From positions 1,798,001 to 1,862,000 of the forward strand of contig NZ_CP035807.1 of the NCBI RefSeq assembly GCF_008329945.1: a stretch of 64,000 bases of DNA, read 5' to 3'. Position numbers and translations under genes: made by a program. Positions 43,770 to 64,000 of this stretch are shown here, one piece after another. This DNA is from Thiospirochaeta perfilievii. Lineage in GTDB: Bacteria > Spirochaetota > Spirochaetia > DSM-2461. The stretch's first letter is position 1. Each line of letters opens with the position of its first letter. The notes beneath the pieces were generated by a model. It made no database searches, was not told where the DNA came from, and saw only the letters and a list, made by a program, of their open reading frames with translations.

Positions 43770-44452
43770 TTAACAAATAAGTAGAGTTTTTGCATCAAGA
43801 CAGAGGTGGGATTCCTGGGAAATAGCTCCGTGTTTAACAAAGGATAATTTTAAGGAATTACCATCTGGTTTTATAGTTAAAACAGTTTTAATATCATGAA
43901 TAAATGGATTTAAGTTCTTTGGTATACCATCCTCATCTAAACTATTAGGATAAATAGTATCACTGAACCATACTTCTACACTTTTTTCTTTGGCGAATTT
44001 TTTAATTTGATCTATATCTTTTATAGCCCCTCGGTTAAAATCGTAGCCATCAATTATTACTACATCAGTACCATTTTGACCATTATCAATCATTGCACCA
44101 ACTGCATCTAAAACCTTAATAACCGGGTACTCATGGTGAAAATTCATAATTATTCTATTATGTATCATCTGATCATGTATCAACATTGCAGACTCAAGAT
44201 CTCTTTTTTAGAAATTTCTTCAAAGATATCTTCATACCAAGCAGAGATATAATCTGTTTTTTTGTCAAATGATACATGAATTACGTGTTTATCCCTTAAT
44301 AGGGAATCCACGGCTATATGAACAAGGCATGCTGTTTTCCCTATACCTTGTTTAGAAGCAATGACTCCGATGTTTCCAGTTCCCACACCACCTTCAGTAA
44401 TTGCTTCTAATTTTCGGAGGGGACTCTTTTGGTTCAACTCTTCTTTTACCAT
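43770..44452 (-). pseudogene. P-loop NTPase gene with a frameshift at an A6 run
   Basis: The first frame (44452 to 44180) has GTGNIGVIASKQGIGKTACL, a Walker A motif at about residues 33-40. It ends after EEISKKEILSLQC. The second frame, continuing to 43770, has the Walker B GTDVVIIDGYDF and a C-terminal beta strand region. They are joined by a one-base shift at TCTAAAAAAGAG (plus strand about 44203-44214), which reads EEISKKRDLESAMLIHDQM. The merged protein has about 227 residues and looks like a RecA/KaiC-like ATPase of unknown role. Error in the assembly is as likely as decay. Confidence 0.7.
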
Positions 44453-44553
44453 ACTTGAACTCCTGTTTTATATTCTTGAAATACAAGGGAGTTTATACAA
44501 CTCCCAGAACCTGATAAATTTAAGTATAATACCTAGAGTCCAAAAATCTACAA

Positions 44554-46335: not shown

Positions 46336-48124
46336 ATTTAGTGTGAAACTCTTCTTCTATCTCACTCTGAATATTCAAGATTCTTCTATATAAATTATCT
46401 TGGTCCTTTATCTCATTATGGGTACCGTCAGCTGTAACAACACCTCTTTCTAATACAATAATCTTATCTGCATCCCTTACTGTTGAGACCCTATGGGATA
46501 TTATTATCGATGTTGGTCTAACATCTCCATCCTTTAAGTTTGTTCTAATTACCTTATCAGTCTCTGTATCAACAGCGCTTAAAGAGTCATCAAATATTAC
46601 AACCGGGTTATTACAAATAAGAGTCCTGGCTATTGCGATTCTCTGTTTTTGACCACCCGAGAGAGTCACTCCTCCCTCTCCCACTAATGTTTCATAACCT
46701 TTATCAAACTCATTTATAGAGTTATGAATACATGCAGTCTCTGTTGCATTAAAAATTTCATCATCATTTGACTCTTCTTTTGCATAGGAGATATTATCCT
46801 TAACACTCTTATTAAATAGAAATGGTTCTTGCAAAATTAAGCTTAGGTTTTCCCTTAAATGTCTCTTACTTATGGTTCTAATATCCATATCATCTACTAA
46901 TATTGTTCCTGTATAGTTATCGTAGAGCCTATGTAGAAGATGAACTAAAGTTGTTTTTCCTGAACCGGTGGGACCAATAATCGCAGCGGATTGCCCCTTC
47001 TCTACAACAAAACTAACATTATTTAAAACTTCAGTTCCATTTGGATATGTAAAACTAACATTCCTAAACTCAATTTTTCCTTGAAGCTGTGGTTTATAAT
47101 TACTATCATCTAAAACTTCAGGATTAGTATCTAAAATCTCCTGTAATCTTTTTAATGATACAGATGTTTTACCACTCTCTGCTAGAAGTCGCCCAAGTTG
47201 TTTTACTGGCCACATTATTCTCTCTACATAGGTAAAAAATGCAATTATCATTCCTATTCCAAACATACCTGAAACAACAAAATAGCTACCTACACCTAAT
47301 ACTACTCCTATTTGCAACATTGATAGTCCATCCGAGGCTGACCAAAACTGGGACATGGCCTTAATAATATCCATGGTCCTCTCTCTTAAATTTCTATTAG
47401 CTATTTCAAACTTGTCTATTTCATACTCTTGTCTTGCAAATGCTTTAACAACTCGAACCCCTGTAAGGTTCTCCTGTAAAACACTACTTAATATTGCATC
47501 AGTCTTCTCTTGTTCCTCAAATACCTTTTGAGCTTTTTTAAAAAAGTTAACAGAGTATAAAAATATAAATGGAACTAAAGCCATTGAAATAAATGACATT
47601 GTTACATTTAAACTAAGCATAAGACTAATTGTAATTCCCATTATAAATATTACTCTTAATATGTTAATAAAATGCTCAGATAAAAACAGCATAGAGTTTT
47701 CTATATCAGTGGTACACCTTTGTATTAAGTCCCCAATTTCCGCCTTTGCATGGTATTCATAGTCTAGTCTCTGTATATGTTTATACATTCTATCCTTCAT
47801 TTTTTTCCCAGCACGTTGGGAAGCAATAGCGATTAAGGCTATATATATAAACTCCATAATCGATGATATAGCGACAAAGGCAACACCTAGAAAACTAAAG
47901 GTTAATATATCCTTAAGTAATACTCCTGTTCTATTTCTAAACAGATATGCTATAAAGCCACTCTCGCTAAATGGTTCGCTTCCAATAACAGAGTCAATAA
48001 CAACCCTTACTATTAGGGGAACTAAAAGTGATATTCCTACAGACATTAGACATAAAATAATAGCCAATGTATAAATTCCAATTGATCCTTTTAGAAAGGA
48101 AAATAATAGTTTAAACCTTTTCAA
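46328..48124 (-). CDS. ABC exporter half-transporter, degenerate-site subunit
   Basis: 598 residues with the same architecture as its partner. Walker A IIGPTGSGKTTLVHLLHR, signature TLSGGQKQRIAIARTL, Walker B VVIFDDSLSAVD, in which the catalytic Glu is Asp, and switch His in IIISHRVSTV. The E-to-D change is the usual mark of the non-hydrolysing site in heterodimeric exporters. It is the first gene of the pair. No ribosome-binding site stronger than AAGG-like is seen upstream. Confidence 0.92.
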   Translation of the reverse strand: MKRFKLLFSFLKGSIGIYTLAIILCLMSVGISLLVPLIVRVVIDSVIGSEPFSESGFIAYLFRNRTGVLLKDILTFSFLGVAFVAISSIMEFIYIALIAIASQRAGKKMKDRMYKHIQRLDYEYHAKAEIGDLIQRCTTDIENSMLFLSEHFINILRVIFIMGITISLMLSLNVTMSFISMALVPFIFLYSVNFFKKAQKVFEEQEKTDAILSSVLQENLTGVRVVKAFARQEYEIDKFEIANRNLRERTMDIIKAMSQFWSASDGLSMLQIGVVLGVGSYFVVSGMFGIGMIIAFFTYVERIMWPVKQLGRLLAESGKTSVSLKRLQEILDTNPEVLDDSNYKPQLQGKIEFRNVSFTYPNGTEVLNNVSFVVEKGQSAAIIGPTGSGKTTLVHLLHRLYDNYTGTILVDDMDIRTISKRHLRENLSLILQEPFLFNKSVKDNISYAKEESNDDEIFNATETACIHNSINEFDKGYETLVGEGGVTLSGGQKQRIAIARTLICNNPVVIFDDSLSAVDTETDKVIRTNLKDGDVRPTSIIISHRVSTVRDADKIIVLERGVVTADGTHNEIKDQDNLYRRILNIQSEIEEEFHTKFA

Positions 48125-48394
48125 AACGGTTTCCTTAAATTAAATAATTTTATTTATAAATATGACAAACTTGAAAATGGTAGAATTTCTAATGGCTTGT
48201 CCCAATAGATTAATGAGATAGTTAAATTTTTAAATTAATTCTTAAAAAAGATTAACTATCTAGGTTGATGAACCCGATTTAGGAGCTCTGTTCTGATTAG
48301 AATAATTGACATAAAATGTTCCTCCGTTCTTTTTTATATAACTTTTATACTTATTGAATCATAAGTCAATACTACTAAAGTAGTATATTATCTT

Positions 48395-48967
48395 TTATTT
48401 TTTACTTTCCGGTAAATAATCTTCAGGGTATTCACTTTCATAGGATTCGGTACTCTCTTGTAAAAAGGCATATGCCGCAATTCCAATTAAGACAACCGGG
48501 TCTATTTTTGCACCAAAATAGAAGCCTCTATCCATCCAATAACCTGCTTCAACTCCCAAAAGGGGATAAATAAAATCTCCAAAAGGCTGCCTTAGTTCGA
48601 ACCTGACACCAGTTCTATAATCAATCTCTCTTCCATATGGCAAATAGTTATCTAGTCTTAGAAACAGTCCTGTTCCCCAGAATGAAGAGTGATCAAATAG
48701 TGGTTCCCAATTCAGTTCCATTGAAAATAGATCAGTAGAGTTTACATTTTCATTCATAAAAACAGGATATATATAGGTTGTTAACCCCAACCCTGTATTG
48801 CTCTCTATAATTCTAAAACTAAAAAGGTCTAAACTACTTATACCACCATTTTGACTATAACTAAAAGAGACATTACCCATAGAGAGACCATTTTTAAAGG
48901 TATGAAAATCTTGGCTAAAACAGAGGGAGGAAATAAATAAATTAATCATTAATAAAAAATATTTCAT
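48395..48967 (-). CDS. Exported hypothetical protein, possible small barrel
   Basis: 190 residues with a signal peptide (MKYFLLMINLFISSLCFS). The mature part has alternating aromatic-rich strands (SFWGTGLFLRLDNYLPYG, then PLLGVEAGYWMDRGFYFGAKI) and a Glu/Ser/Tyr tail. It may be a small outer membrane barrel, as in several spirochaete families, but no domain is recognised. The 270 bp upstream of the ABC exporter (48125-48394) contain no other gene or clear motif. Confidence 0.5.
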   Translation of the reverse strand: MKYFLLMINLFISSLCFSQDFHTFKNGLSMGNVSFSYSQNGGISSLDLFSFRIIESNTGLGLTTYIYPVFMNENVNSTDLFSMELNWEPLFDHSSFWGTGLFLRLDNYLPYGREIDYRTGVRFELRQPFGDFIYPLLGVEAGYWMDRGFYFGAKIDPVVLIGIAAYAFLQESTESYESEYPEDYLPESKK

Positions 48968-49562: not shown

Positions 49563-51287
49563 TCAGTTTTTTTTCTTAAGAATATTTACTGAGTACTCAC
49601 TAAACTCAACTCTATTTTTATCTGCAGAAACAACAATCTCTTCATTTTTTAAAAGATCAATATATGTTCCATTTGTAAGGGTACAGTATTTACAATTATC
49701 ATTGTTGTTAATATATACATATATATCTTCATTCCCTAGGGATCTCTTATAAGCAAGAAGATCACAATCTATCCATGAGAAAGAGCCCCTTGTTAATGGT
49801 TTATTATTATTCCGTATCTGTAATAAGCTTTGGATCATATTATATACGGTCATATTCCATGTTGATTTGTCCCAATTCATACCCTTTCTACAGTCCGGGT
49901 CACCATCTCCGGTTAGACCGATTTCTGTTCCATAATAAATTGAAGTAGAACCTACAAATGTTAATAAAAAACTCATTGCCAACAGAGACTTTCTAAAATC
50001 CATATCACTTAAATTCACAAATCTTGCTGTATCATGGGAGTCTAAAAGGTTCATCATGGCCTCATTAACCTGCCATGTATTTCTCATTAATGACTCATTT
50101 ATCATTCTTTTAAAAGTCTCAGTAGTTATTGAACTCTTTGCAAAATACTTAAGACAAGAGTAGTTTACTGGGTAGTTCATAATTCCATCAAACTGATCCC
50201 CCTGTAACCATGGTTGACTATCGTGCCAATTCTCACCGACAATATAAGCATCAGGCTTTATACTCTTAATCTCTTTTCTAAAAGCCTTCCAGAACATATG
50301 GTCAACCTCGTTGGAAACGTCTAAACGCCAACCATCAATATCTGTCTCTTTAATCCAATATGAAGCAACGTCCAAAAGATACTTTTGTACTTCAGGGTTA
50401 CTTGTTCTAAGCTTTGGCATTTTTTGTTCAAAGGCAAACTTTTCATACTTAATTTCACTGTTACCTTCACTCTCTTCTTCAATATAAAACCAATTATAAT
50501 ACTTAGAGCTCTTCCCCTTTTCTACGACATCTTGGAACTTATCAAATTTGTACCCACAATGATTATAAACTGCATCTAATACAACTTTAATCCCTCTTTT
50601 ATGGCACTCTGATACAAGTTTTTTTAGTGTGTCTTTATCTCCAAAGTTTGGGTCTATTGTATAATAATCCGTAGTGTCATATTTATGATTAGTTGTAGAC
50701 TTGAATATTGGAGTCATATATATTCCACTTATTCCCAGGTCTTTTATATGATCTAAGTGGTTAATAATTCCCTGTAAATCACCTCCAAAGAAACTATCTC
50801 TCTCTGGTTTAGAGTCCCAAGGGACTATATTTTTAGGACTTATATCCGGATTGCCATTATCATATCTCTCTGGGAAAATTTGATAAAAAACAGTATCTCT
50901 AACCCAATCTGGGATTTCATGGATATCAGCAACATTTATATATGGATAATGGAATTGAACTAAATGCAGTTCATCCTCAGGAATATCATCGTTAACACCC
51001 CACTCTGTAAAGTAGTGGGACTCATCTCTGTTTTCCAGTAAAAAATAGTAAGAAAGCCTATTATTAGTAGCAGTTATAGATATTGTATAGTAGTCGTACA
51101 GATCATCACTAAATGCTCTATACATCTCGGTAGTTATTTTTTTTTCCCACTCATACTTATCACCATATACAAGTAGAACCCTATCAACATCATCCTTAGC
51201 GGTTCTTATTCTTATATGTATATTATCCCTAGTATAAGCATAACAATAGTTACTTTTAGGTTTATGCATAATTGCCTGTATATTCAT
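49563..51287 (-). CDS. GH13 neopullulanase/cyclomaltodextrinase-type enzyme
   Basis: 574 residues without a signal peptide, hence cytoplasmic. An N-terminal beta domain of about 120 residues of the neopullulanase type comes first (CBM34-like), then the GH13 barrel: VVLDAVYNHCGY, DGWRLDVSNEVD with the nucleophile Asp (about 319), YIVGENWHDSQPW with the acid/base Glu (about 347) and NLLDSHDTARF (about 415). The barrel is followed by a short beta domain. Such enzymes open cyclodextrins or cut pullulan and maltodextrins. A LacI-type operator lies 22 bp upstream of the start. Confidence 0.92.
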   Translation of the reverse strand: MNIQAIMHKPKSNYCYAYTRDNIHIRIRTAKDDVDRVLLVYGDKYEWEKKITTEMYRAFSDDLYDYYTISITATNNRLSYYFLLENRDESHYFTEWGVNDDIPEDELHLVQFHYPYINVADIHEIPDWVRDTVFYQIFPERYDNGNPDISPKNIVPWDSKPERDSFFGGDLQGIINHLDHIKDLGISGIYMTPIFKSTTNHKYDTTDYYTIDPNFGDKDTLKKLVSECHKRGIKVVLDAVYNHCGYKFDKFQDVVEKGKSSKYYNWFYIEEESEGNSEIKYEKFAFEQKMPKLRTSNPEVQKYLLDVASYWIKETDIDGWRLDVSNEVDHMFWKAFRKEIKSIKPDAYIVGENWHDSQPWLQGDQFDGIMNYPVNYSCLKYFAKSSITTETFKRMINESLMRNTWQVNEAMMNLLDSHDTARFVNLSDMDFRKSLLAMSFLLTFVGSTSIYYGTEIGLTGDGDPDCRKGMNWDKSTWNMTVYNMIQSLLQIRNNNKPLTRGSFSWIDCDLLAYKRSLGNEDIYVYINNNDNCKYCTLTNGTYIDLLKNEEIVVSADKNRVEFSEYSVNILKKKN

Positions 51288-51308
51288 ATTTTCTCCCTCT
51301 ACTTACTA

Positions 51309-51328
51309 TAGTGCAAACGCTTGCACTA
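51309..51328. promoter_or_regulatory. LacI-family operator before the GH13 gene
   Basis: The core TGCAAACGCTTGCA is flanked by matching TAG and CTA, a palindrome with the central CG typical of LacI-family repressors such as MalR. It lies in the region where the promoter of the neopullulanase-type gene is expected. The regulator gene is not in the window. Confidence 0.7.
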
Positions 51329-51436
51329 TCATTGGCAAAAGATTATATTAGTAAAAAAACATTGTCAATCCTTCATGTCTATTAATGCTACCATAGTAGT
51401 ATTGAATAAAAGATATAATTAGATAAAGTTTATTAG

Positions 51437-51619
51437 ATGGACAGTCAAGAATTAGAAAAAAACATAACAAAGGATTATTTTTTTACATTTTTAAGTAGAT
51501 TTGATTTAACCCACGGTGTGTGGATGTTATATCTAGCTTTTAAAGGATTAACTCTTTTTCAAATAGGATTAATGGAGACTGTCTACCACGTCTCTTCATT
51601 TACAATGGAAATTCCCACA
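51437..51619 (+). pseudogene. MFS transporter gene, 5' remnant cut by the CRISPR array
   Basis: The frame from ATG 51437 encodes 61 residues of a major facilitator superfamily N terminus (SRFDLTHGVWMLYLAFKGL is helix 1, QIGLMETVYHVSSFTMEIPTA leads into helix 2 and the EIPTG-like motif). It then runs directly into CRISPR repeat sequence and stops after nine codons read from repeat. The rest of the gene is missing here; pieces resembling the 3' part lie at 61820-62113 on the same strand. Intact MFS proteins have about 400 residues. Confidence 0.75.
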
Positions 51620-52289
51620 GCTTTAGTTCCATCTAAAATGACACACATCTAAAACAGATCGAATCTCTATACCCAAGAGCTATATGCTTTAGTTCCATCT
51701 AAAATGACACACATCTAAAACGCTTCATCATGAGAAATAATGCTATTTAAAGTTTTAGTTCCATCTAAAATGACACACATCTAAAACACCTTCTGATTCC
51801 CACCGCTCTTGGATTAAGCTTTAGTTCCATCTAAAATGACACACATCTAAAACAAGAGTGCTTAGATCTTTATCTTTATCAAAGCTTTAGTTCCATCTAA
51901 AATGACACACATCTAAAACAGATATAAATCAAACGAGACTTAATAATATGCTTTAGTTCCATCTAAAATGACACACATCTAAAACTGTGATCTTAACTCG
52001 TTGGCTGTCTCTCAAGCTTTAGTTCCATCTAAAATGACACACATCTAAAACAAGTGGCAGGGTATTGTTAGGAGTATTGACGCTTTAGTTCCATCTAAAA
52101 TGACACACATCTAAAACAGATAGATTATCTAGTTTATCCCATGATATGCTTTAGTTCCATCTAAAATGACACACATCTAAAACAGATCCAGGGAGATAGA
52201 ATTTTCTGATGATGCTTTAGTTCCATCTAAAATGACACACATCTAAAACTGGTCTTGTAACTCTTTAGTAGATGGGCCAGCTTTAGTTC
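51620..52289 (-). CRISPR. CRISPR array, leader-distal block
   Basis: Ten complete 36-bp repeats at 51620 plus 66n (n 0-9), each followed by a spacer of exactly 30 bp, then a 10-base repeat fragment at 52280-52289 where an IS begins. In nine of the ten, and in the fragment, the plus-strand repeat begins GCTTTAG; only the repeat at 51752 begins GTTTTAG as in the other block. The crRNA strand is minus, so these are the oldest spacers. They lie beyond the IS and are cut off from the leader, but the IS genes read toward them. Confidence 0.97.
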
Positions 52290-52335
52290 TGAAATATTCA
52301 ATATCAGTGCAGTCATAAATACCTAAAATTATAAA

Positions 52336-53172
52336 CTAAGCTACAGCCTGTTTATCTGTAGTCATATTCCTATAAATAGAAGGAGGAAATCCCTCTTTAT
52401 TCATAGTATTAATTCTTTGTCTATTATAATAAATCATCACATATCTCCAGACTATTTTCTTTACTTCTTCCCTCTTCAATTTCAGAGTATTAATTTTATA
52501 TATCTTCTCTTTTTTTAGAGTCGCAAAAAAACTTTCCATCCTGCTATTATCATAACATTTTCCAACATCACTCATACTCTGAATGGCACGAAATCGCCCA
52601 AGAGTATCTTTATATTTTTCACTAGTGTACTGACTCCCGGCATCACTGTGGATAATAACTCCATTTCCAGGATTTCTTGACTTATATGCCTCCTTTATAG
52701 CATCTATGCATAAATCTTTTTTCATATGGCTATCCATAGACAAACTTATAATTTCACCTCCAAAACAATCTAATATTGGAGCTACATACAGTTTACCGTC
52801 AGAACAAGGTATTTCTGTAATATCTGTTAACCACTTTTCATCTGGTTTTGTTGCTGAAAAATCTCTCTTTATTATATTTTCAGGTCTATTTGCCTTTTTA
52901 TCTGCTTTAGTAAGACCATTAGGGCTTCTTCTGCTCTTATGAAGTAAATTACCCTTTCTCATTGCTCTAATCACTGTAGATCTAGAGTTATTTTTAATAC
53001 CTCTTTGTTTTAACCCTAGCATTACTCTTTCAATACCATAATTATCGTTATCTGGATACTCATCTATTATTTCATGTATTTTGACCAGAAGAAGCTGCCA
53101 TGCTTTGGGACGGTTCCTAGTTCTTTTCCATTTATAGTAACCTGTCTCGCTGACATCTAGAGCATTACACAT
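52336..53172 (-). CDS. IS3-family transposase orfB (rve integrase core)
   Basis: 278 residues from ATG 53172; the frame stays open upstream to overlap the end of orfA, so the active product is probably an OrfAB fusion made by minus-one frameshifting on the T7 run near the end of orfA. Seen: HTH-like CNALDVSETGYYKWKRTRN, then the catalytic residues in TDITEIPCSDGKLYVAP, VIIHSDAGSQYTSEKY and DNSRMESFFATLKKE. All DDE residues are intact, so the element could still move. A plus-strand shadow frame was ignored. Confidence 0.93.
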   Translation of the reverse strand: MCNALDVSETGYYKWKRTRNRPKAWQLLLVKIHEIIDEYPDNDNYGIERVMLGLKQRGIKNNSRSTVIRAMRKGNLLHKSRRSPNGLTKADKKANRPENIIKRDFSATKPDEKWLTDITEIPCSDGKLYVAPILDCFGGEIISLSMDSHMKKDLCIDAIKEAYKSRNPGNGVIIHSDAGSQYTSEKYKDTLGRFRAIQSMSDVGKCYDNSRMESFFATLKKEKIYKINTLKLKREEVKKIVWRYVMIYYNRQRINTMNKEGFPPSIYRNMTTDKQAVA

Positions 53173-53237
53173 TCTAATAACAGGGAGATTTAACTCTTTC
53201 TGAAACTCATGAATATATGTAAAAATGCTCTTTTTTG

Positions 53238-53516
53238 TTATTTCTTCCGGTCTTTGGCAAAAAAACCTAAAGCATCCTTTAAAATTTCATTAGCTTGCTT
53301 TAATTCCTGGATTTCTCGCTGCATCTCTTCTTCTCTTACTGTTAGAGGTGAAGAGTAAGTTTGATCTTTAGTATTATTCTTTTTCTTATTTCTGATTCTT
53401 CTCCATCCTGCTAATGTGCTGTACTTTAAACCTAATTGTTCTGATGCTTTTTTTAGTCCTATATCATCAGATAAACCCAATGCTTGCTCTTTAAATTCTT
53501 TACTATACTTCGTCAT
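53238..53516 (-). CDS. IS3-family transposase orfA
   Basis: 92 residues: helix-turn-helix (YSKEFKEQALGLSDDIGLKKASEQLG, then STLAGWRR) and a leucine-zipper-like C terminus (REIQELKQANEILKDALGFF) ending FFAKDRKK, the usual end of orfA in IS150/IS3-type elements. It binds the terminal repeats and forms the frameshifted OrfAB. GAGGTATTT precedes the ATG. Confidence 0.9.
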   Translation of the reverse strand: MTKYSKEFKEQALGLSDDIGLKKASEQLGLKYSTLAGWRRIRNKKKNNTKDQTYSSPLTVREEEMQREIQELKQANEILKDALGFFAKDRKK

Positions 53517-53572
53517 AAATACCTCTACTATTATTTCGGTATTTTAGACTGCACTTTTATGATAACCTTTCA

Positions 53573-55734
53573 ATACGAAAAGTCCAGTTTTAGTTCCATC
53601 TAAAATGACACACATCTAAAACGTGTTGAATTAGTAGCTGAGGAAGAGTTAAGTTTTAGTTCCATCTAAAATGACACACATCTAAAACCCAGTAATCTTG
53701 TAATATACCCAATCTTCTGTTTTAGTTCCATCTAAAATGACACACATCTAAAACCACTAACAGTAGTGACATGATGGATAATACGTTTTAGTTCCATCTA
53801 AAATGACACACATCTAAAACTCAAATGATCCTACTATGAGAAACATCTTCGTTTTAGTTCCATCTAAAATGACACACATCTAAAACATGTAAAATGTTGG
53901 CATTACTTTAAAAATTGTTTTAGTTCCATCTAAAATGACACACATCTAAAACCTAGGGGTTCTGCAATATATGGGGAAGATAGTTTTAGTTCCATCTAAA
54001 ATGACACACATCTAAAACTCCGGAAGCAACCAGGATGGTTACTAAAGTGTTTTAGTTCCATCTAAAATGACACACATCTAAAACATTTATAATCTTTAGT
54101 AGTAGCCCTCTGGTGTTTTAGTTCCATCTAAAATGACACACATCTAAAACGGGAATACATAAGTGGTTCCTATTTCAATAGTTTTAGTTCCATCTAAAAT
54201 GACACACATCTAAAACTCATCAACATTCTCATATTCAGGTAATTTTGTTTTAGTTCCATCTAAAATGACACACATCTAAAACCACCAATTACTGATAACC
54301 TCTCTTGAAAGGGTTTTAGTTCCATCTAAAATGACACACATCTAAAACAATGGGTACTTAATAATCATGGATTGGCAGGTTTTAGTTCCATCTAAAATGA
54401 CACACATCTAAAACGTCTTTTGTTGTATCGGGCAATCTGAGCTTGTTTTAGTTCCATCTAAAATGACACACATCTAAAACGTAGTTTAGCATTACTAGTT
54501 TTATTATTAGGTTTTAGTTCCATCTAAAATGACACACATCTAAAACTTCTCACCCGATTCATCAAGAACATCTGTTGTTTTAGTTCCATCTAAAATGACA
54601 CACATCTAAAACATTCCATTGCAATTTTAACTTTAGGCGTTAGTTTTAGTTCCATCTAAAATGACACACATCTAAAACCTGGCTCTGTTAACTCTTCAAA
54701 TGTATAAAGTTTTAGTTCCATCTAAAATGACACACATCTAAAACCGTGTTGCTAATCTGTTCTTGTTCGCCTGAGTTTTAGTTCCATCTAAAATGACACA
54801 CATCTAAAACAACAGTAACAGGCAATAGATGGTTCAATATGTTTTAGTTCCATCTAAAATGACACACATCTAAAACTTGAATCGGTATAAGTTCTATGTA
54901 ACAACTGTTTTAGTTCCATCTAAAATGACACACATCTAAAACGAAACGAAGGTTTTGATTACTTCTGGAAAAGTTTTAGTTCCATCTAAAATGACACACA
55001 TCTAAAACTAGGTATTTAGTCAAATTATAGTTTGTATGGTTTTAGTTCCATCTAAAATGACACACATCTAAAACGGTGGTATCATGTGGGGCATGTTCAC
55101 TCTTGTTTTAGTTCCATCTAAAATGACACACATCTAAAACAGAAAAGACACAACATACAAAGGCAAGAGAGTTTTAGTTCCATCTAAAATGACACACATC
55201 TAAAACAAAGTCCAACCTCTGCCACAAAGTTATCCCGTTTTAGTTCCATCTAAAATGACACACATCTAAAACCTTAGATGATTTGTTAGAAAACGGTTTT
55301 ATGTTTTAGTTCCATCTAAAATGACACACATCTAAAACAGCATCCGTGATAGAATAATTATTAATAGTGTTTTAGTTCCATCTAAAATGACACACATCTA
55401 AAACCTAGTAAACACATAATAGATAGCGAAAGAAGTTTTAGTTCCATCTAAAATGACACACATCTAAAACATCTCAACATGGATTCCTTTTATATCAAAA
55501 GTTTTAGTTCCATCTAAAATGACACACATCTAAAACCGTCCGTCTTCTTTAAATTCTGTCATTAAAGTTTTAGTTCCATCTAAAATGACACACATCTAAA
55601 ACTCTATGAAGTTCGCCCTGGAGGGGCACAACGTTTTAGTTCCATCTAAAATGACACACATCTAAAACTAATCATCGTAAGAACCTGTAACTTTATATGT
55701 TTTAGTTCCATCTAAAATGACACACATCTAAAAC
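53573..55734 (-). CRISPR. CRISPR array, leader-proximal block
   Basis: 33 repeats of 36 bp at 53587 plus 66n (n 0-32), 32 full spacers all of 30 bp, plus a 14-base spacer remnant (53573-53586) beside the IS. By eye the repeats look uniform; all begin GTTTTAG and end CTAAAAC on both strands, so orientation cannot be read from the ends. The anti-repeat of the tracrRNA and the leader show that crRNA is read from the minus strand, with the newest spacer at 55669-55698. This is a long, recently active-looking array. Confidence 0.98.
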
Positions 55735-55772
55735 CTCAAATAGGCTTTAGAAGCAGGTACACACACTCCCTA
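55735..55772 (-). promoter_or_regulatory. CRISPR leader end with ATTTGAG anchor
   Basis: Only 38 bp separate the csn2 stop from the first repeat. Read on the crRNA strand, the leader ends CCTATTTGAG directly against the repeat; ATTTGAG is one of the conserved leader-end motifs that guide Cas1-Cas2 integration in type II-A systems. The array promoter must therefore lie in this short stretch or inside csn2, or the array is read from the cas operon. I see no convincing -35/-10 pair. Confidence 0.75.
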
Positions 55773-56465
55773 CTATGTCGTAGATGGATTTTCAGTGTAA
55801 TCATTAAAATCACTTTCAATAACTAACTTTGTTTCATAATCTATAATATCATTACTTATATTTTCTAACAATATACAATTCAATTTCTTGTAAATTATAT
55901 ATTTAAACAACTCTAATAACTCATTAGAATCTAAAAAAAGCTTAATGTTTGTAAACACTACAACTTCATATAAATTCAACTCAGTAACAACATCTACATA
56001 CTGATAAAGTTGTGATAAGATTCCTGAATCTGGCAATTTAATATTTAAGTTCACAAATTTTAAAAACTTATCAGGTGTGAAATCTGAATTTATTACCAAA
56101 TCAATATCATGCTCAATAATCTTACCTTCAATTTGCTCTATTAAGGTTGAATAGTTAACCTCTAACTTTGATAGGAACTCAATATCTGAGTATAACTCTT
56201 CTGAAATAATAGTAATAAGTTTTTTTTGTATATTTTTCATCTCATATTCTATACTTTCAGGATTACAAATCACTATTTTTTTAGCCCAATTAACACTTTT
56301 ACTGTTTTCAAAAAATATTATGTTCTCTTTCAATTCAGTACTAGCCACATATGCTTTAAAGCTTTCTATAATATTTCTATATAGTTGTTTGTTATGAATT
56401 TCTAAGGTTATTAAATTATCATTAAACTGTAATTCATCAAAATTACTAATCTTAAAACTAATCAT
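55773..56465 (-). CDS. csn2: CRISPR-associated protein Csn2 (type II-A)
   Basis: 230 residues. Csn2 forms a DNA-end-binding ring needed for spacer acquisition in type II-A. The N terminus (SNFDELQFNDNLITLEIHNKQLYRNIIESF) and the segment VVVFTNIKLFLDSNELLELFKYIIYKKLNCILLEN fit the family, whose degenerate P-loop fold lacks Walker motifs. Its length matches the roughly 220-residue short form. Position and size rather than strong motifs support the call. The start overlaps cas2 by four bases. Confidence 0.85.
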   Translation of the reverse strand: MISFKISNFDELQFNDNLITLEIHNKQLYRNIIESFKAYVASTELKENIIFFENSKSVNWAKKIVICNPESIEYEMKNIQKKLITIISEELYSDIEFLSKLEVNYSTLIEQIEGKIIEHDIDLVINSDFTPDKFLKFVNLNIKLPDSGILSQLYQYVDVVTELNLYEVVVFTNIKLFLDSNELLELFKYIIYKKLNCILLENISNDIIDYETKLVIESDFNDYTENPSTT

Positions 56466-56782
56466 AATATTATTAGCCTATCTGTTGAGTCTAAATTAGA
56501 GTAGTGTACTTCTCCGATAAAGGTATCTACAGAGGAGAACTGACGTTCGGTTACCACAAGAACTTGCACCAACCCATTTGGAGGTAAATCTTTTTTTATC
56601 CTAGATTTTATTAAATTTACTGAAGATGAGTTTAGTGCTAATTTTGTATAGACTGATTTTTGTTGCATAATAAAACCCTCTTTAAGTAGAGACCTTCTAA
56701 ATCTATTATAAAAATATCGTTCTTTAGGCGTTTCCATAGGTAGATCAAAAAAAAGTAGCACTCTCATAAACCTCCTCTTCAA
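56462..56782 (-). CDS. cas2: CRISPR-associated endoribonuclease-fold protein Cas2
   Basis: 106 residues. MRVLLFFDLPMET (Asp about residue 13) is the conserved first strand, followed by KERYFYNRFRRSLLKEGFIMQQKSVY, typical of type II Cas2. It bridges two Cas1 dimers during spacer integration. Starts and ends with four-base ATGA overlaps with cas1 and csn2. Confidence 0.95.
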   Translation of the reverse strand: MKRRFMRVLLFFDLPMETPKERYFYNRFRRSLLKEGFIMQQKSVYTKLALNSSSVNLIKSRIKKDLPPNGLVQVLVVTERQFSSVDTFIGEVHYSNLDSTDRLIIL

Positions 56783-57651
56783 AACTTAGTTTCATAAAAC
56801 TTAATACTATTTACACTATTCTTATCTAAAGAATCAAATATACTCTTTACATAGATCTTTATTGCATTGGTTACATATTGTTCCTTTTTATTTATGTTTA
56901 CCGTTCTATTAAGAATATTTATAAGGTCTTGTTTATAAGAAGTATTAAACTCTCTATCTTGATTTCTAAATACATATTCATCAATTAATATTCTAAAAGG
57001 CTCCATTAAGTCAGATGATAAATTAAACTGATTAAACTCACTTTTATGCCATATTCCTAACTGTGTAAAATACCCATTGCTAACCACTTCTTTATTAAAA
57101 CAAGATAGTATTATTGAATAACCATAATCTAATGCTTTGTTTATAGAGGAACAGTTATCTCTAGTAAAACTTTTACCAAAAAGTGCATTAAAATAAACCT
57201 TAGCAGCATGCCCTTCTCTATTTGTAGGGTCATTTTGTTCTGTTCCCTTATAATAACCTTCTAATATGGAGGACTCTTCCTTTGAATTAGCTTTAAGAAG
57301 TTGGGACTGCTTTCTTATTTTTTCTGTAACAATAGATGTCCATACAAATTCTTTAGTAGTTACATCCCAATTGAGCTGTTTATTTAGTTTTTTACTGGTA
57401 TTGTAACTGCCGTATAAACTTAATAATTGACTTTGTGGGTTATGTGTCTCATCACAAAAAACAATATATATTTTGTGCTTAACTAGTTCACATAGCAGGT
57501 ATGTCGTAATTACAACTTGTGTTGAATCAATAATAAGCATCTCTATTTCAGATAGGTGTATTAGTTTTAAATCATCACTTCTAACATAGAGATGTTCATT
57601 TTTATAGCTAAGTTTACATTTACTTGTAACTAATACAGTTCTAAAACTCAT
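56779..57651 (-). CDS. cas1: CRISPR-associated integrase Cas1
   Basis: 290 residues. The metal-binding residues are visible: Glu 146 in NREGHAAKVYF, His 202 in QLGIWHKSEFNQFNL, and the acidic pair Asp 214 and Glu 217 in SSDLMEPFRILID. Integrates new spacers at the leader end with Cas2. Its start shares one base with the cas9 stop (TAATG), so translation is coupled. Confidence 0.96.
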   Translation of the reverse strand: MSFRTVLVTSKCKLSYKNEHLYVRSDDLKLIHLSEIEMLIIDSTQVVITTYLLCELVKHKIYIVFCDETHNPQSQLLSLYGSYNTSKKLNKQLNWDVTTKEFVWTSIVTEKIRKQSQLLKANSKEESSILEGYYKGTEQNDPTNREGHAAKVYFNALFGKSFTRDNCSSINKALDYGYSIILSCFNKEVVSNGYFTQLGIWHKSEFNQFNLSSDLMEPFRILIDEYVFRNQDREFNTSYKQDLINILNRTVNINKKEQYVTNAIKIYVKSIFDSLDKNSVNSIKFYETKF

Positions 57652-60600
57652 TACAACTTGTACCTCTTTTCATAAAAACCTGTTATTGATTGGTCTATAA
57701 AAGTCATTTCATCTCTGTTAAGAGCAAAACTTGCAATAATACCTGTTCCAACAGAGCAACCTATTTTCTTTAAATCAATCTGACTTGACCCTGATTTTGT
57801 TACATCTAGAAGTTTTAATATAATTTGAGTTTTTTCCTCCTTTGATAGATTTATGAAAAGATCTCTATTTAAAGTCATTTTTTCTGATATCGTACTATAT
57901 TTATAATAATGAGTTTCTAATTTCTTAATATAATAGTCATAAAATTCTTCAAATAATGAGTCATTAACTTTATCTATACTTTTGTTGCTAGTTATATCTT
58001 TTATAAATAATGTAAACTTATTATCCAGAAAAAGTTGAGTTGCAGTATGAAGATAAGCTTCACTAGCAATATAAAATTCAGATCCACCTTGTATGAATAG
58101 CTGATTAAGATAAATCTTATCTTTTAATATTTTATATTCATCTACATCTAGTGAATCTTTTATAAATTTATCTAGAGCAACCTCAAGATTTTTAGAAGAT
58201 GCAATATTAACCGGAACTCCTACAATTCTATTGAACACTTTTTTACCCTTTTTTGCTTCAATAGCTATACAATAAGCTCTATTTTCAGAAGTATAAAAAC
58301 CATACTTTTCAGGAGAAAGGTTCTCTTTTAAAGGAATTTTATTATTACCTTTACTAGTGTTAGAATGAATTGTTGATTTCCAAAAACCTCCTTTATCTTC
58401 ACCACTGTTCTCTTTTAACTGCTTAGTAATTAACACATTTTTATATGCTAAAACCTTCCTTACCTTATCTGAAAGTTCTATATTTTTATTTAAACCACCA
58501 ATAACAAACCCATATTTAGAACCAGTTGATTCTTTAAGGTAATTTTTCCATGTGAACTTAGTTTGCCTATCAAAAATATGTTTACCAACAACACAGGTTA
58601 TATATGCGTCATGGGCATGGTGTAAGTCATTTAAGTTACGAATTTTATATAATTTATTTGCTTTTCTATAGCTAGAAGTTAATTGAGCTTTAACAGAGAC
58701 AACATTTTTTGCATATTTATAATCTTTAAAGATATTTAATACATGTTTTGAAATCTGTCTAGTTTCAACTAGCTGCCTACTAATAAAACCTTTATAATCC
58801 TGTTCTGAAAAGCTAGTTTTCTTTAGATTATTGTGTTTAATTTTTGATATTAGCCCCTGCTGTTCTAAGTTCTCCCATAGAATATATACAGATTTAGGTA
58901 TATCCATTCTTGAATTTACTGGCTGATCTAATTTGTCCATATTTGCTTTAGCTATAACAAGAACTTTGTTATTGAAGCTATCATCTTTAATAAAAGATTG
59001 AGGTATAATATGGTCTATATGATAATTAGAAAGTTGATTAATATGTAGAGGTTTCCCAGTATACATACACTTTCCATTCTGGGTTAAATAAAGAAAAAGT
59101 CTGCTGCTCTCAATTCTTTCGTCTTTTACTACTTCGGGGTCATTTATTATTTTGTAATCGAAGTAACTATCATTTTTTATCTTTTTATAAAGATCGTCTA
59201 ACATTTTTCTTCTGGATGTTGTACGTTTCTTCTCTTGATTATCTCTAGCCATCTCAATATAGATTCTTTGAGGTTTGTTTTTATCTTTCCCTTTAGACAT
59301 AATCTTTATAATTTCATCTACTATTTTAACTGATTGCCATATACCCTTTTTATTGGCTGGAGATGTAGGTAAAGATTCAATATCTTCTTTATATGTAACT
59401 TTAGTAGAGTTTAGATTACTTTCTAGTCTAATTTCATTAATTTTATCATTAAAACCAAACTCATCATCATTTACAATCTCCATAAAGTTATAGTTTGATT
59501 TTCTCATTATATTTATTATTGTTAGATCAACATGATTTACATTGTTACCTTTTATACCATCGAGTAACCTAGCAGATAGACGCGACCATCCAGAATAACT
59601 CTTTTTCAGTATTTTCTTAATTTGCTCTTTAGTGATCTCTGGATATTTTTTAGTAATTTGCTTTCTAATGATCTCTTTACTATTGTAAATTGTCAGCCAT
59701 TCAATAATCTTTTCTACTTTATTTGGATTATCTTCGACATATCCTTCTCCAAAGATCTTTTCAAAGTCTATATAAGATGTTAATGATGATGCAAATTTGT
59801 TCTCTTGTTGAGTTCCTGTAATCTCATCGTCATAATTATAGACTCCTCCTTGTTTTGTAGAGTACGCAATATCACTGTTATTTAGATAATCTTTAATTTT
59901 TTTAATAGTAACATTTTTATACTTTTTAAATACATCTCTTATAATATCTCTTTTAAGATCCATTGATAATAATTTCCCACCGATTCTTACCTTATTAAGC
60001 TCGTTTAATAGAATAAATTCGGAGTAAAGTATTGAGTTTTTAGGTATAACATCTTCTTTAGGCAGGTATGTACATTTATTAGTCATTCTTCTAATAAATT
60101 TTTCAGCAGTTTTATCTATATCAATTACATCTTTATAATTCCATGGTAAAATTTCTCCTTCAGTTAACCTTTCCATCCATGCAAATTCAGATTTATCTTC
60201 AGAAACCAAAGGACCAACATAGTATGGAATTTTAAAAGTTAAAATAGAGAGAATCTTCTCTATATCCAGACTAGGGTAGAATTTGCTTTGTTTTACTAGG
60301 ATTTGTTCTAACTCCTGTTTATGTAACTGATATGGTATACCTACATTCTCTTTCGATCTAATTTTTTTTAGAAAATCTTCTTTTTCGATCTGCTCAATAC
60401 AATATATGTAATCTTTATTATCTGATAATTCGACTTTATACTTTTCTAGTATAGCTTTAATACTTTTATTTAGCTGTTCATTAGAACATGAGCTTTCATT
60501 ATTAATGTAGGCGGTATAACTTACCTTTTCTGCTTTTTTACTATGAAATATAGATTTGTAATATTCTTTCAAGGTAGTTATTTTAAATAGACTTTTTAAG

Positions 60601-61550
60601 TGTTTCTTATCTTTTTTATGTTTATTGAATCTTTGTACCATAGCGCTAGAAATATTGTGTTCATCTCCTAATATTTCAGAAAGGATGAAACCACTATATA
60701 CCTGCTCTATAGATTCAAACAGGTAATAATCATCACCTGTTATTTCCATGATAACAGAATCTTCTAACTCTTCAGAAAATGATTTATTGTATTTAATATC
60801 ACTATCGTTTACCATAAATATTTTAGGGAAATTAGCTTTATACCCTACTATTGCCTTAGATATCTCAGTGATCTCTTTTTTATATTGTTTATCAAATAGA
60901 TCAACAATTTCTTTTTGTTTGTCACCTTTTTTCTTATTTTTATCTAGCAGTATAACTTGAACTTCATTTACCGTAGGTAGGTTCATATTTTCATCGTAAA
61001 AATCTGAGATGCTTTCAAGCATTTTTTCAATAGATTTAGAAATACCACTCTCTGTATTAAAGTCTGCTTCTTCGTAAATAAAATGACCTCTGAACTTAAT
61101 CATGTGATGTACTGCTAAATATAACAGTCGAATATCTATTTTTTCATCACTCTCTAGAAGCTCTTTACGAAGATGATAAATAGTAGGGTATTTTTGGTGA
61201 TAGGCCTTATCATCAAATGTTTCATCTTCGAAAAGTATATTTTTAGTTTCCTGTTTTTTATCTTCCATCCATAAAAAGGAATTATCCATTCTTCTAAAAA
61301 AGTTTTCATCTATAGGCAATATTTCATTTTCAAATAGAGTTCTTAATAGCTGAATTCTCTGCTTTCTTCTGGCAATTCTTCTACGAGTAGCTCTATGTGT
61401 CCTTCTAACCACTGCTGTATTACCTGAATCAAACAATCTAACACCCATAAGGTTTTTACCTGATTTTCGAATAATATTTAAATTCTCATCAACAACAGAC
61501 CAACCAACAGATGCTGTTCCAATATCTAACCCGATTGAATAATTTTTCAT
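57651..61550 (-). CDS. cas9: Cas9, type II-A RNA-guided DNA endonuclease
   Basis: 1299 residues. RuvC-I YSIGLDIGTASVGWSVVDE (Asp 9), arginine-rich bridge helix from RRTHRATRRRIARRKQRIQL (about 54-73), RuvC-II IYIEMARDNQ (Glu about 765), HNH YHIDHIIPQSFIKDDSFNNK (His about 847), RuvC-III HHAHDAYI (Asp about 982), and a C terminus with IDQSITGFYEKRY, like S. pyogenes-type enzymes. All catalytic residues are present, so both DNA strands should be cut. AAGGA lies before the ATG. First gene of cas9-cas1-cas2-csn2. The PAM cannot be read from sequence. Confidence 0.98.
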   Translation of the reverse strand: MKNYSIGLDIGTASVGWSVVDENLNIIRKSGKNLMGVRLFDSGNTAVVRRTHRATRRRIARRKQRIQLLRTLFENEILPIDENFFRRMDNSFLWMEDKKQETKNILFEDETFDDKAYHQKYPTIYHLRKELLESDEKIDIRLLYLAVHHMIKFRGHFIYEEADFNTESGISKSIEKMLESISDFYDENMNLPTVNEVQVILLDKNKKKGDKQKEIVDLFDKQYKKEITEISKAIVGYKANFPKIFMVNDSDIKYNKSFSEELEDSVIMEITGDDYYLFESIEQVYSGFILSEILGDEHNISSAMVQRFNKHKKDKKHLKSLFKITTLKEYYKSIFHSKKAEKVSYTAYINNESSCSNEQLNKSIKAILEKYKVELSDNKDYIYCIEQIEKEDFLKKIRSKENVGIPYQLHKQELEQILVKQSKFYPSLDIEKILSILTFKIPYYVGPLVSEDKSEFAWMERLTEGEILPWNYKDVIDIDKTAEKFIRRMTNKCTYLPKEDVIPKNSILYSEFILLNELNKVRIGGKLLSMDLKRDIIRDVFKKYKNVTIKKIKDYLNNSDIAYSTKQGGVYNYDDEITGTQQENKFASSLTSYIDFEKIFGEGYVEDNPNKVEKIIEWLTIYNSKEIIRKQITKKYPEITKEQIKKILKKSYSGWSRLSARLLDGIKGNNVNHVDLTIINIMRKSNYNFMEIVNDDEFGFNDKINEIRLESNLNSTKVTYKEDIESLPTSPANKKGIWQSVKIVDEIIKIMSKGKDKNKPQRIYIEMARDNQEKKRTTSRRKMLDDLYKKIKNDSYFDYKIINDPEVVKDERIESSRLFLYLTQNGKCMYTGKPLHINQLSNYHIDHIIPQSFIKDDSFNNKVLVIAKANMDKLDQPVNSRMDIPKSVYILWENLEQQGLISKIKHNNLKKTSFSEQDYKGFISRQLVETRQISKHVLNIFKDYKYAKNVVSVKAQLTSSYRKANKLYKIRNLNDLHHAHDAYITCVVGKHIFDRQTKFTWKNYLKESTGSKYGFVIGGLNKNIELSDKVRKVLAYKNVLITKQLKENSGEDKGGFWKSTIHSNTSKGNNKIPLKENLSPEKYGFYTSENRAYCIAIEAKKGKKVFNRIVGVPVNIASSKNLEVALDKFIKDSLDVDEYKILKDKIYLNQLFIQGGSEFYIASEAYLHTATQLFLDNKFTLFIKDITSNKSIDKVNDSLFEEFYDYYIKKLETHYYKYSTISEKMTLNRDLFINLSKEEKTQIILKLLDVTKSGSSQIDLKKIGCSVGTGIIASFALNRDEMTFIDQSITGFYEKRYKL

Positions 61551-61567
61551 TTTAATTCCTTTTATAC

Positions 61568-61595
61568 TTGATTTTGTTTTTTTATGTTGTATACT
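61568..61595 (+). promoter_or_regulatory. tracrRNA promoter
   Basis: TTGATT at 61568-61573 and TATACT at 61590-61595 are separated by 16 bp and point away from cas9. Transcription would begin at about 61602, just before the anti-repeat. The promoter overlaps the sequence upstream of cas9, which must have its own minus-strand promoter in the same short gap. Confidence 0.7.
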
Positions 61596-61601
61596 TTTAA
61601 T

Positions 61602-61712
61602 TATTCTAGTTCCATCTAGAATGACACACAGAGTTAAAATAAAGTTTTAACTTAAATGCCAATTTGTTTTGGTTTCGCGTAGGCGAATAGACCACCTTTA
61701 TGGTGGTTTTTT
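61602..61712 (+). ncRNA. tracrRNA
   Basis: About 111 nt. The 5' part (TTCTAGTTCCATCTAGAATG and onward to about 61640) is an imperfect copy of the plus-strand repeat and pairs with the minus-strand crRNA repeat, with a bulge between an upper and a lower stem as in known crRNA:tracrRNA duplexes. Then come possible hairpins GTTAAAA/TTTTAAC, CCAA/TTGG and TTCGC-GTAG-GCGAA (61672-61686), and a terminator ACCACC-TTTAT-GGTGGT with T5 at 61691-61712. It is transcribed divergently from cas9, 51 bp from its start codon. Confidence 0.88.
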
Positions 61713-61819
61713 AATTTATAATTTCATTATCAATCATAAAAACGAAAGGATGTTTCGTAAAAATTTATTTTTATTATTTATTATACTTATTTCATCTCCA
61801 AATGCTTAACATTGGTTAA

Positions 61820-62113
61820 GCTTTATATTTATTGATAATGTATGTCGATCCCTATATGCAATTAAATTATTTAAGAAGAATTTCCGATTTTATTAATTAG
61901 ACTGATATAATAAGAAAATAATACAAAAGTACAGGATTTATTTGCCACAATCCTCCCCGCACTCTATTAAAACTTTGTTGATATTATTATACTTGCAGAT
62001 TTTTTTATTACAAGCTAAATAATGCATTTAAAGTTATAGCAATTACATCAACTACAGTTTTAGGAACTATGATCTATCTTGTTAGAAAAGGGAATCACAT
62101 TAGGCAGTCATAG
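61820..62113 (+). pseudogene. Degenerate MFS transporter 3' remnant
   Basis: Two broken reading frames on the plus strand look like transporter sequence: ALYLLIMYVDPYMQLNYLRR with SDFIN before a stop (61820-61900), which recalls a helix followed by the R-x-S-x-x-I-N segment of MFS proteins, and FFYYKLNNAFKVIAIT then LGTMIYLVRKG before a stop at 62111-62113, resembling a last helix with a basic tail. Stops and shifts separate them. With the 5' remnant at 51437 they suggest the gene that received the CRISPR-Cas locus. The rest of 61713-62123 is AT-rich, with one orphan 19-codon signal-peptide-like frame near 61753. Confidence 0.45.
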
Positions 62114-62123
62114 CTCCGTTTTT

Positions 62124-64000
62124 TTAAACTGTAACTACCTCCCTATTTAAAATTTTAGGAATCTTTATAACAAATTGACAACCAACATCAGCTCTACTTC
62201 TAATTGTTATACTCCCATCTAAGTCTCTAATTAGGTTATTAACAAGGGGCATACCTACTCCCTTCCCTGCAACAACATCAGCTTTTTTAGCTGTAGATAA
62301 CCCCTGCTTAAATATAAGTCTAGGAATAATATTATCTGAAAGTTTATCAAACTGTTCTTTTGTTATAATTCTCTCATCATAGGCCTTTTTTCTTATATTT
62401 TGTAAATTTAAACCCTCTCCGTCATCAGAGAAAACAAGATGTAGAGTATCTTCACTCTCCTCTACTTTAATATAAATTAAACCTATTGCCTTTTTACCTA
62501 ATGCCACTCTCTTTTCACTTGATTCGATGCCATGGTAAATTGCATTCCTCATAAGCTGAATTATAATATTTTGAATAGGCTTAAACTGTTCCTCACTAAA
62601 TTTTTCAATACTAAAACCATCTAATTTCAACTGTACAGCCTTATCGTATTTTGTAGAAAGTCTAGAGCACATCTTAACTAAATGCTCTTTTAAATAGTTA
62701 TCAGTATTATGAATACTACCTCCATTAGCCTGAAAGCCCGCCCACTTACTTAATAACTCCTGGATCTTATTAAATGTATTTTGTAACTCACTAAATTTAA
62801 GTGTTAATGGAATAAAATCCTCTGTATCTATCTCACTACTTTTTAAAATCTTCTGCATAGATAGCTCTAACTCTTCCGCTTTTTCAGAGATAAAATTCAG
62901 TTCTAATAACTCAGCATCACCCTTAATTCCATGACTAAGCCTAAATGCTTTCTCTAGTTTATCCCTTGAAGAATCACTCCCCTTTTGGAAGATAGAGTTA
63001 ATTTCAATAAGATCTTTATTAGAGAACTTAAAAAACTCCCTTAACACTGTAGGTTCTACGTGGAGAATTTTGTAGAGTAACTCCATCTCTATATGACTCT
63101 TTTTTCTTGTATGCTCTATCTCTTTATTAAGTTCAAACTCTTCTGAAACATCACTAACCATAACTAGCAGATTTATAATTTCACCCTTTTTTTCTACTCT
63201 TTTAAAGTTAAAAACTAAGTGTTTAGTTCTAAAGCTTCCCTGGTTATTATCAAAGTAGGCATCGACTTCCCTTAAAGGGTTTAATCGTTCCACATGACGC
63301 CACTGAGTCGCGGGATTAAAAGCGACATCTAAAAAGTCTTTAAATAAGTTTTTATCAACTTCTAATAATATTTTCTCTATAAAAGTAATAAAACTAAAAT
63401 CAGCTAAGGATTTCTCCTCTAAAATAAGCTCTAAACTCTTGGAATAGTATTTTCCAATCCCTCCATTTTGAGAAAGTAAGAAAATTCCATCACTTACGTT
63501 TTCTAAGATATTTAAATAATCCCCTTTCTCTACTGTGTTCTCCTCTAACTTATCCAAGACTTCATTATATATTCCAGCAATTTGCCCCACCTCAGTAAAA
63601 GGTTCAACAGGGGCTCTTAAAGAAATATCTCCAGTTGATGCTTGATGATGCAAAACAGTATAAAGATCAAAAATCTCTGTAGACGTTCCGTGCTCAGATT
63701 TATTTAATCCATCGATCTCTTCTTTTAATCCAATTCTTAAGGGATAAATTTTATTTAATAAAAACAAAAAGACAAATGAGATACCAAAGGCCCATACCCC
63801 ACAGGTAATAATACCTACAAGCTGAATTATTATTTGACCTCCTCTATTTAGACCAGTATTTAATATATCTAAATTTCCAAAGATACCAACAGCCAATGTC
63901 CCCCAAATTCCAGAGGAAAGATGGACAGGAATTGCTCCAACAGCATCATCAATTTTTAACTTATCGAGCACCATAGTTGATAAAAACATTACAACACCAC
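62124..64000 (-). CDS. Ammonium transporter (Amt) fused to HPt/CheA-like histidine kinase (partial)
   Basis: The 5' end lies outside the window; the frame is open to position 64000. The visible N-terminal part is the end of an Amt/Rep/Rh channel: KIDDAVGAIPVHLSSGIWGTLAVGIF holds a pore His in VHLSSG, and more helices follow. Then come a PAS-like stretch (NILENVSDGIFLLSQNGGIG), an HPt-like helix LSHGIKGDAELLELNFISEKAEELE, and a CheA-like ATPase (QLMRNAIYHGIESSEKRVALGK, FSDDGEGLNLQNIRKKA, GKGVGMPLVNNLIRDLDGS). It should sense ammonium passing through, or bound to, the channel and phosphorylate a response regulator encoded elsewhere. Confidence 0.88.
   Translation of the reverse strand, partial: GVVMFLSTMVLDKLKIDDAVGAIPVHLSSGIWGTLAVGIFGNLDILNTGLNRGGQIIIQLVGIITCGVWAFGISFVFLFLLNKIYPLRIGLKEEIDGLNKSEHGTSTEIFDLYTVLHHQASTGDISLRAPVEPFTEVGQIAGIYNEVLDKLEENTVEKGDYLNILENVSDGIFLLSQNGGIGKYYSKSLELILEEKSLADFSFITFIEKILLEVDKNLFKDFLDVAFNPATQWRHVERLNPLREVDAYFDNNQGSFRTKHLVFNFKRVEKKGEIINLLVMVSDVSEEFELNKEIEHTRKKSHIEMELLYKILHVEPTVLREFFKFSNKDLIEINSIFQKGSDSSRDKLEKAFRLSHGIKGDAELLELNFISEKAEELELSMQKILKSSEIDTEDFIPLTLKFSELQNTFNKIQELLSKWAGFQANGGSIHNTDNYLKEHLVKMCSRLSTKYDKAVQLKLDGFSIEKFSEEQFKPIQNIIIQLMRNAIYHGIESSEKRVALGKKAIGLIYIKVEESEDTLHLVFSDDGEGLNLQNIRKKAYDERIITKEQFDKLSDNIIPRLIFKQGLSTAKKADVVAGKGVGMPLVNNLIRDLDGSITIRSRADVGCQFVIKIPKILNREVVTV

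Follow-up and report, generated by a model that had tools for sequence, protein, structure and literature searches.

Gene content of the locus

The features of the locus are listed in Table 1, with positions given in the window, the whole 64-kb stretch of DNA that was analysed. By its gene content, the segment 51620-61713 represents a type II-A CRISPR-Cas locus that is complete and of an ordinary, known kind. The cas9 gene, encoding both RuvC and HNH domains, and the genes cas1 and cas2 were accompanied by the signature gene csn2, to which the array was adjacent. The cas9 product also matched solved II-A Cas9 proteins. The tracrRNA aligned with RF02348 over the full length, with 27.6 bits that fell short of the gathering score (70). 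Its folding z-score was -5.0, its terminator was located at 61689-61709 and the anti-repeat was read directly. In the order tracrRNA-cas9-cas1-cas2-csn2-array, in the 36-bp repeats and 30-bp spacers and in the presence of every Cas9 domain, the locus resembled other type II-A systems. As all cas genes were also open, nothing argued against the predicted activity. Unlike other type II-A systems, the locus was found in a broken MFS transporter gene, with zero bases between this gene and the distal repeat. An insertion sequence inside the array and a Cas9 just 34-40% identical to the relatives found were further differences. The self-contained unit of array, csn2, cas2, cas1, cas9 and tracrRNA described in an earlier note on this DNA was recovered; the IS3-type insertion in the array had been omitted there.

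Table 1. Features of the CRISPR-Cas locus, the MFS gene pieces and the adjacent genes, with positions in the window.
Feature	Position	Strand	Evidence
Left-hand GH13 gene, cyclomaltodextrinase-like, divergent from the MFS fragment	49563-51287	-	Pfam Alpha-amylase 2e-76, Alpha-amylase_N
MFS transporter N terminus, 61 intact codons	51437-51619	+	Homologue identity
CRISPR array, 43 full repeats	51620-55734	-	
IS3-type element in the array, with two transposase ORFs	52290-53572	-	rve and HTH_Tnp_1 domains
csn2	55773-56465	-	Pfam Cas_Csn2 3e-17
cas2	56462-56782	-	Pfam CRISPR_Cas2 6e-13
cas1	56779-57651	-	Pfam Cas_Cas1 1e-21
cas9, 1299 aa, intact	57651-61550	-	Cas9_REC, HNH_4, Cas9_RuvC, Cas9_PI, bridge helix
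tracrRNA with terminator, divergent	61604-61713	+	RF02348, fold, terminator
Probable frameshifted MFS remnant, DFIN, RLI and ATIL in order	61880-62005	+	Frameshift alignment, moderate support
Probable MFS C-terminal helix and stop, open reading frame	62006-62113	+	Top score among 610 stop-anchored segments
Amt-histidine kinase gene, right neighbour, 3' part	62124-63989	-	Ammonium_transp, Hpt, HATPase_c

All 43 repeats of the genome were located in this one array, and neither a second array nor stray repeats were detected elsewhere in the genome. The terminal leader-distal repeat (51620-51655) was not degenerate. The IS3-type element breaks the array after the tenth repeat counted from the distal end, and two copies with 79% identity were present elsewhere in the genome. 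Its edges, read by eye, are bordered on the left by a repeat stub of 10 nt and on the right by 14 nt of spacer; with the ends read in this way, no simple target duplication was recognised in its flanks. Since part of a repeat and of a spacer is missing beside the element, some array sequence disappeared together with it. On the + strand, nine of the ten repeats farthest from the leader (51620-52249) begin with GCTTTAG, GC replacing GT. The third distal repeat and all 33 leader-side repeats begin with GTTTTAG. The distal variant may have changed and then reverted, or spread through recombination. No minus-strand terminator-like site was found at 51288-51619, between the distal end of the array and the GH13 gene on the same strand, so array transcripts might enter the GH13 gene.

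No related Cas9 was found in the two genomes of the same genus or in the remainder of the family. The closest relatives in the class reached at best 34-40% identity. Close relatives were not detected in viral contigs, and the best match in plasmids had 35% identity. This distribution makes a horizontal gain of the CRISPR locus likely. As no close Cas9 relative was available, no donor locus could be used for defining the ends of the locus.

The MFS fragment at the distal end of the array

The open reading frame to the left of the array (51437-51652, + strand) comprises 71 codons, of which the final 10 are CRISPR repeat sequence. The preceding 61 codons showed 72% identity to a complete MFS protein of 397 aa (L003), originating from a MAG labelled Clostridiales, and were homologous to the family of this protein across the whole length of the piece. 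Identity was 66% to the MFS protein L004, 47% to L005-L007, the intact proteins having approximately 395-410 aa, and 51% to the MFS protein of a same-genus genome (G002). A homologue of the piece was present in 51 of 395 genomes of the same class. Pfam returned no domain match for the 61 residues, and the assignment to MFS is based on the full-length homologues instead. Judged by these homologues, the piece at 51437-51619 truly encodes an MFS N terminus. It contains no stop and no frameshift across its 183 bp.

Codon 61 of the MFS gene (ACA) ends at 51619 and the leader-distal repeat starts at 51620, with no base between them. The homologues go on with ...MEIPTGAVADIFGRK, whereas the window has ...MEIPT followed by the repeat, GCTTTAGTTCC.... 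The position of the joint is ambiguous by at most one base (G). These data agree with the earlier note, in which a start of 61 MFS codons was said to run at base precision into the repeat at 51620.

Among 11 other II-A loci of the class in which the distal array end and the next gene were both present, the distance from the distal repeat to the next open reading frame was 48-425 bp, and the two were fused in none; the open reading frames had been called mechanically and picked by eye. A random cut through units of 66 bp would meet the exact edge at approximately 2 of 66 positions, or about 3%, with the one ambiguous base counted. Together, the chance of about 3% and the 0 of 11 comparison loci are suggestive only.

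Probable MFS remnants beyond the tracrRNA

The strongest part of the right flank was the open reading frame at 62006-62113, in which YYKLNNAFKVIAITSTTVLGTMIYLVRKGNHIRQS and a stop codon align with HYGLRNAFMLVATGATISLFVLGKIIQKRNNTN at the end of L003. Every stop in the 64 kb that was preceded by 32 open codons (n = 610) was scored with an MFS C-terminal profile. The stop at 62111-62113 ranked first, with a score of 46.2 compared to 39.5 for the runner-up. The last 33 codons gave their best ungapped score with L003, the protein that is also closest to the N terminus. For 20 of 31 MFS homologues, the own last 25 residues were placed at 62006-62113. Among 68 other proteins of similar length, 6 were placed in the same way, as were 7 of 31 reversed MFS sequences. 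Since the homologues are interdependent, the 20 of 31 represent support and not a probability. The segment is probably the 3' end, with the final helix and stop, of a gene from the MFS family to which the left piece belongs.

Because Pfam found nothing in the three raw frames of the right flank, the DNA of 61700-62123 was aligned with tolerance for frameshifts to MFS family profiles of 17 homologues and, more broadly, of 31. With the 17-homologue profile, the score was 70.5, compared to 48.2 +/- 7.2 for shuffled sequences, 7 of 1000 of which scored as high; 3 of 294 real tiles also did. When the alignment was anchored at the C terminus, this was true for 1 of 1000 shuffles. The alignment was collinear with the family and terminated at its C terminus. 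The 31-homologue profile scored 66.4, a value reached by 41 of 2000 shuffles (3 of 2000 if anchored) and by 14 of 588 real tiles of the window (5 if anchored). As the scores of the broader profile are near those of the controls, support upstream of about 62000 is moderate only.

The motifs DFIN (61886), RLI and ATIL (61944) appeared in the order of the family and at roughly the expected distances from the stop, with changing frames. Overall, the right-hand MFS part held at least three frame changes and stops in approximately 225 bp. A frameshifted MFS remnant at 61880-62005 is plausible from these alignments, some of which prefer homologues other than L003. Between 61714 and about 61880, profile alignment identified no assignable MFS sequence. 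This interval includes a terminator-like hairpin (61804-61821), which may be part of the CRISPR side. The earlier note had placed decayed MFS sequence at 61820-62113 and advised a three-frame translation and alignment. The last helix and stop at 62006-62113 are probable and a match to the MFS profile emerged from the frameshift alignment, whereas the raw frames were blank in Pfam and a start at 61820 was not demonstrable.

Comparison with related genomes

The right-hand neighbour, the Amt-kinase gene, has an orthologue with 67% identity and conserved synteny in G002. There, the gap between the Amt-kinase and GNAT genes measures 110 bp and the flanking genes are collinear with the window on both sides. 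This interval of G002 contains no GH13, no MFS and no CRISPR sequence; in the window, the same two genes are separated by GH13, the MFS remnants and the CRISPR locus (49563-62113). According to this alignment of gene orders, a block of 12.6 kb is the net difference from G002, either gained here or lost in G002. An intact MFS gene between the GH13 and Amt-kinase genes, for which the earlier note had suggested a search in relatives, was not found at this site, which was visible in one same-genus genome only. At other Amt-kinase loci of the class, neither MFS nor GNAT was present in the stretches compared. Neither an alignment of the right-hand pieces to an unrelated family nor a relative holding the MFS fragment with different right flanks and no CRISPR locus was encountered.

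The best homologues of the GH13 gene in the class had 46% identity, and the match in G002 was a different GH13. Linkage of GH13 and MFS was not seen in L003 and L004, and L005-L007 held only a distant GH13 a few kb from the MFS gene. A palindrome, TAGTGCAAACGCTTGCACTA, is located at 51308-51330 upstream of the GH13 gene and resembles a LacI-family operator. Beyond the GNAT gene lie a small gene and two genes for ABC transporters (44300-48967), which G002 likewise lacks at this site; GNAT sits between two blocks that are both missing there in G002.

The missing middle and the ends of the locus

In L003, approximately 260 codons separate the last residue of the N-terminal piece from DFIN, compared to 172 bp in the window outside the CRISPR locus. 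Approximately 600 bp or more of the middle of the MFS gene are therefore missing. The missing part was not found elsewhere in the genome, where only paralogues with 27% identity were detected, and the far side of the locus does not hold the contiguous rest of the gene. The two CRISPR-edge junctions showed no similarity above shuffles, direct or inverted. Likewise, no target-site duplication and no microhomology longer than one G exceeded shuffles at the CRISPR edges. A 12-bp near match with the core AGGAACTAT at both ends of the 12.6-kb block was equalled by 10% of shuffles and was not significant.

The loss of the middle and the lack of a target-site duplication argue for a replacement, or an insertion together with a deletion, and not for a clean insertion. 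The earlier note had offered one insertion of about 10.2 kb or a replacement of the middle, with the entry boundaries preserved. Of these, the single clean insertion was not supported, whereas replacement fits the data. Towards the array, the boundary is known to the exact base; that on the right is not preserved and may lie anywhere within 61714-61880. The observation was confirmed in its main parts and its first interpretation partly supported. As in the inactivation of genes by genomic islands, a foreign block was gained and the target gene broken. Unlike in such cases, no integrase and no target duplication accompanied the block and part of the target gene was lost.

Origin of the arrangement

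CRISPR-Cas loci often move among bacteria, and the joints of their entry into a chromosome are rarely visible. No pertinent paper on CRISPR loci within genes was found in the literature searched. Either the arrival of the locus or a later rearrangement destroyed the MFS gene. Probably, the II-A locus entered the MFS gene, the middle of which was replaced or deleted by illegitimate recombination. Judging from G002, an MFS gene and a divergent GH13 gene would initially have been gained between the Amt-kinase and GNAT genes. The CRISPR locus would then have replaced the middle of the MFS gene, or entered with deletion of neighbouring DNA. In this step, illegitimate recombination would have fused MFS codon 61 directly to the leader-distal repeat. 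The severed 3' part of the gene would have decayed subsequently. The array would have continued as a record of past invaders, with the IS3-type element striking later. We infer that the Cas9 system presently works like other II-A systems. A single event is favoured by the C-terminal remnant, which is on the same strand, in the correct order and, like the N terminus, best matched by L003.

The unequal decay of the two MFS parts, with a chance of approximately 0.05 under equal decay (hand estimate), mildly favours two separate events, and a history of two events was therefore kept as the main rival. In this history, which we consider unlikely, the CRISPR locus entered beside an older dead MFS gene or into what was left of it; the distal part of the array was brought up to the start of a second MFS gene, intact until then, by a subsequent deletion. 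The base-exact joint would then reflect chance or the one-G microhomology. Besides the decay, the undegenerate terminal repeat, appearing as though it were formerly internal, and the preference of some frameshift alignments of the right remnant for homologues other than L003 are consistent with two events. However, two adjacent MFS genes of the same family in the same orientation would be required, the ungapped C-terminal match was best with L003 and a random cut meets a repeat edge at only about 2 of 66 positions.

It is improbable that the right-hand match arose by chance, with the locus abutting an N-terminal fragment only and 61714-62113 being unrelated intergenic DNA. The blank Pfam result for the raw frames and the real tiles that equalled the unanchored score of the broad profile would fit such a coincidence. 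Against it stand the first rank among the 610 stops, the rarity of equally high anchored shuffles with both profiles and the C-terminal alignment of most homologues, on the right strand and in the right place.

Very improbably, the Cas1-Cas2 integrase attached an end of MFS-gene DNA, chromosomal or incoming, to the spacer-side edge of the repeat, and repair finished the rearrangement. The exact leader-distal edge would suit this route, as would the absence of such fusions among the 11 other II-A loci of the class. The single case, the exact edge expected by chance in about 3% and the right edge without repeat-like or duplicated sequence speak against it, and we know of no case in which long DNA ends were integrated in such a way. 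The joining of the MFS 3' end to the 5' edge of the repeat has the polarity of second-site integration, and the repeat borders attacked by II-A Cas1-Cas2 in that step have been described (PMC6895254). Ectopic spacer acquisition inside II-A arrays is also known (PMC7999890). It likewise involves Cas1-Cas2 of the same subtype away from the leader, but here the end of a gene, as read from the sequence, and not a 30-bp spacer was joined to the repeat. If the integrase had made the joint, a CRISPR locus could rearrange or move its surroundings by means of its own Cas1-Cas2.

The system itself is not new, and the odd part is the base-exact joint between gene and repeat. With one joint exact to the base and the other within approximately 170 bp, the gain can be placed in time with respect to the array, and random, IS-driven and integrase-driven routes of recombination become testable in relatives.
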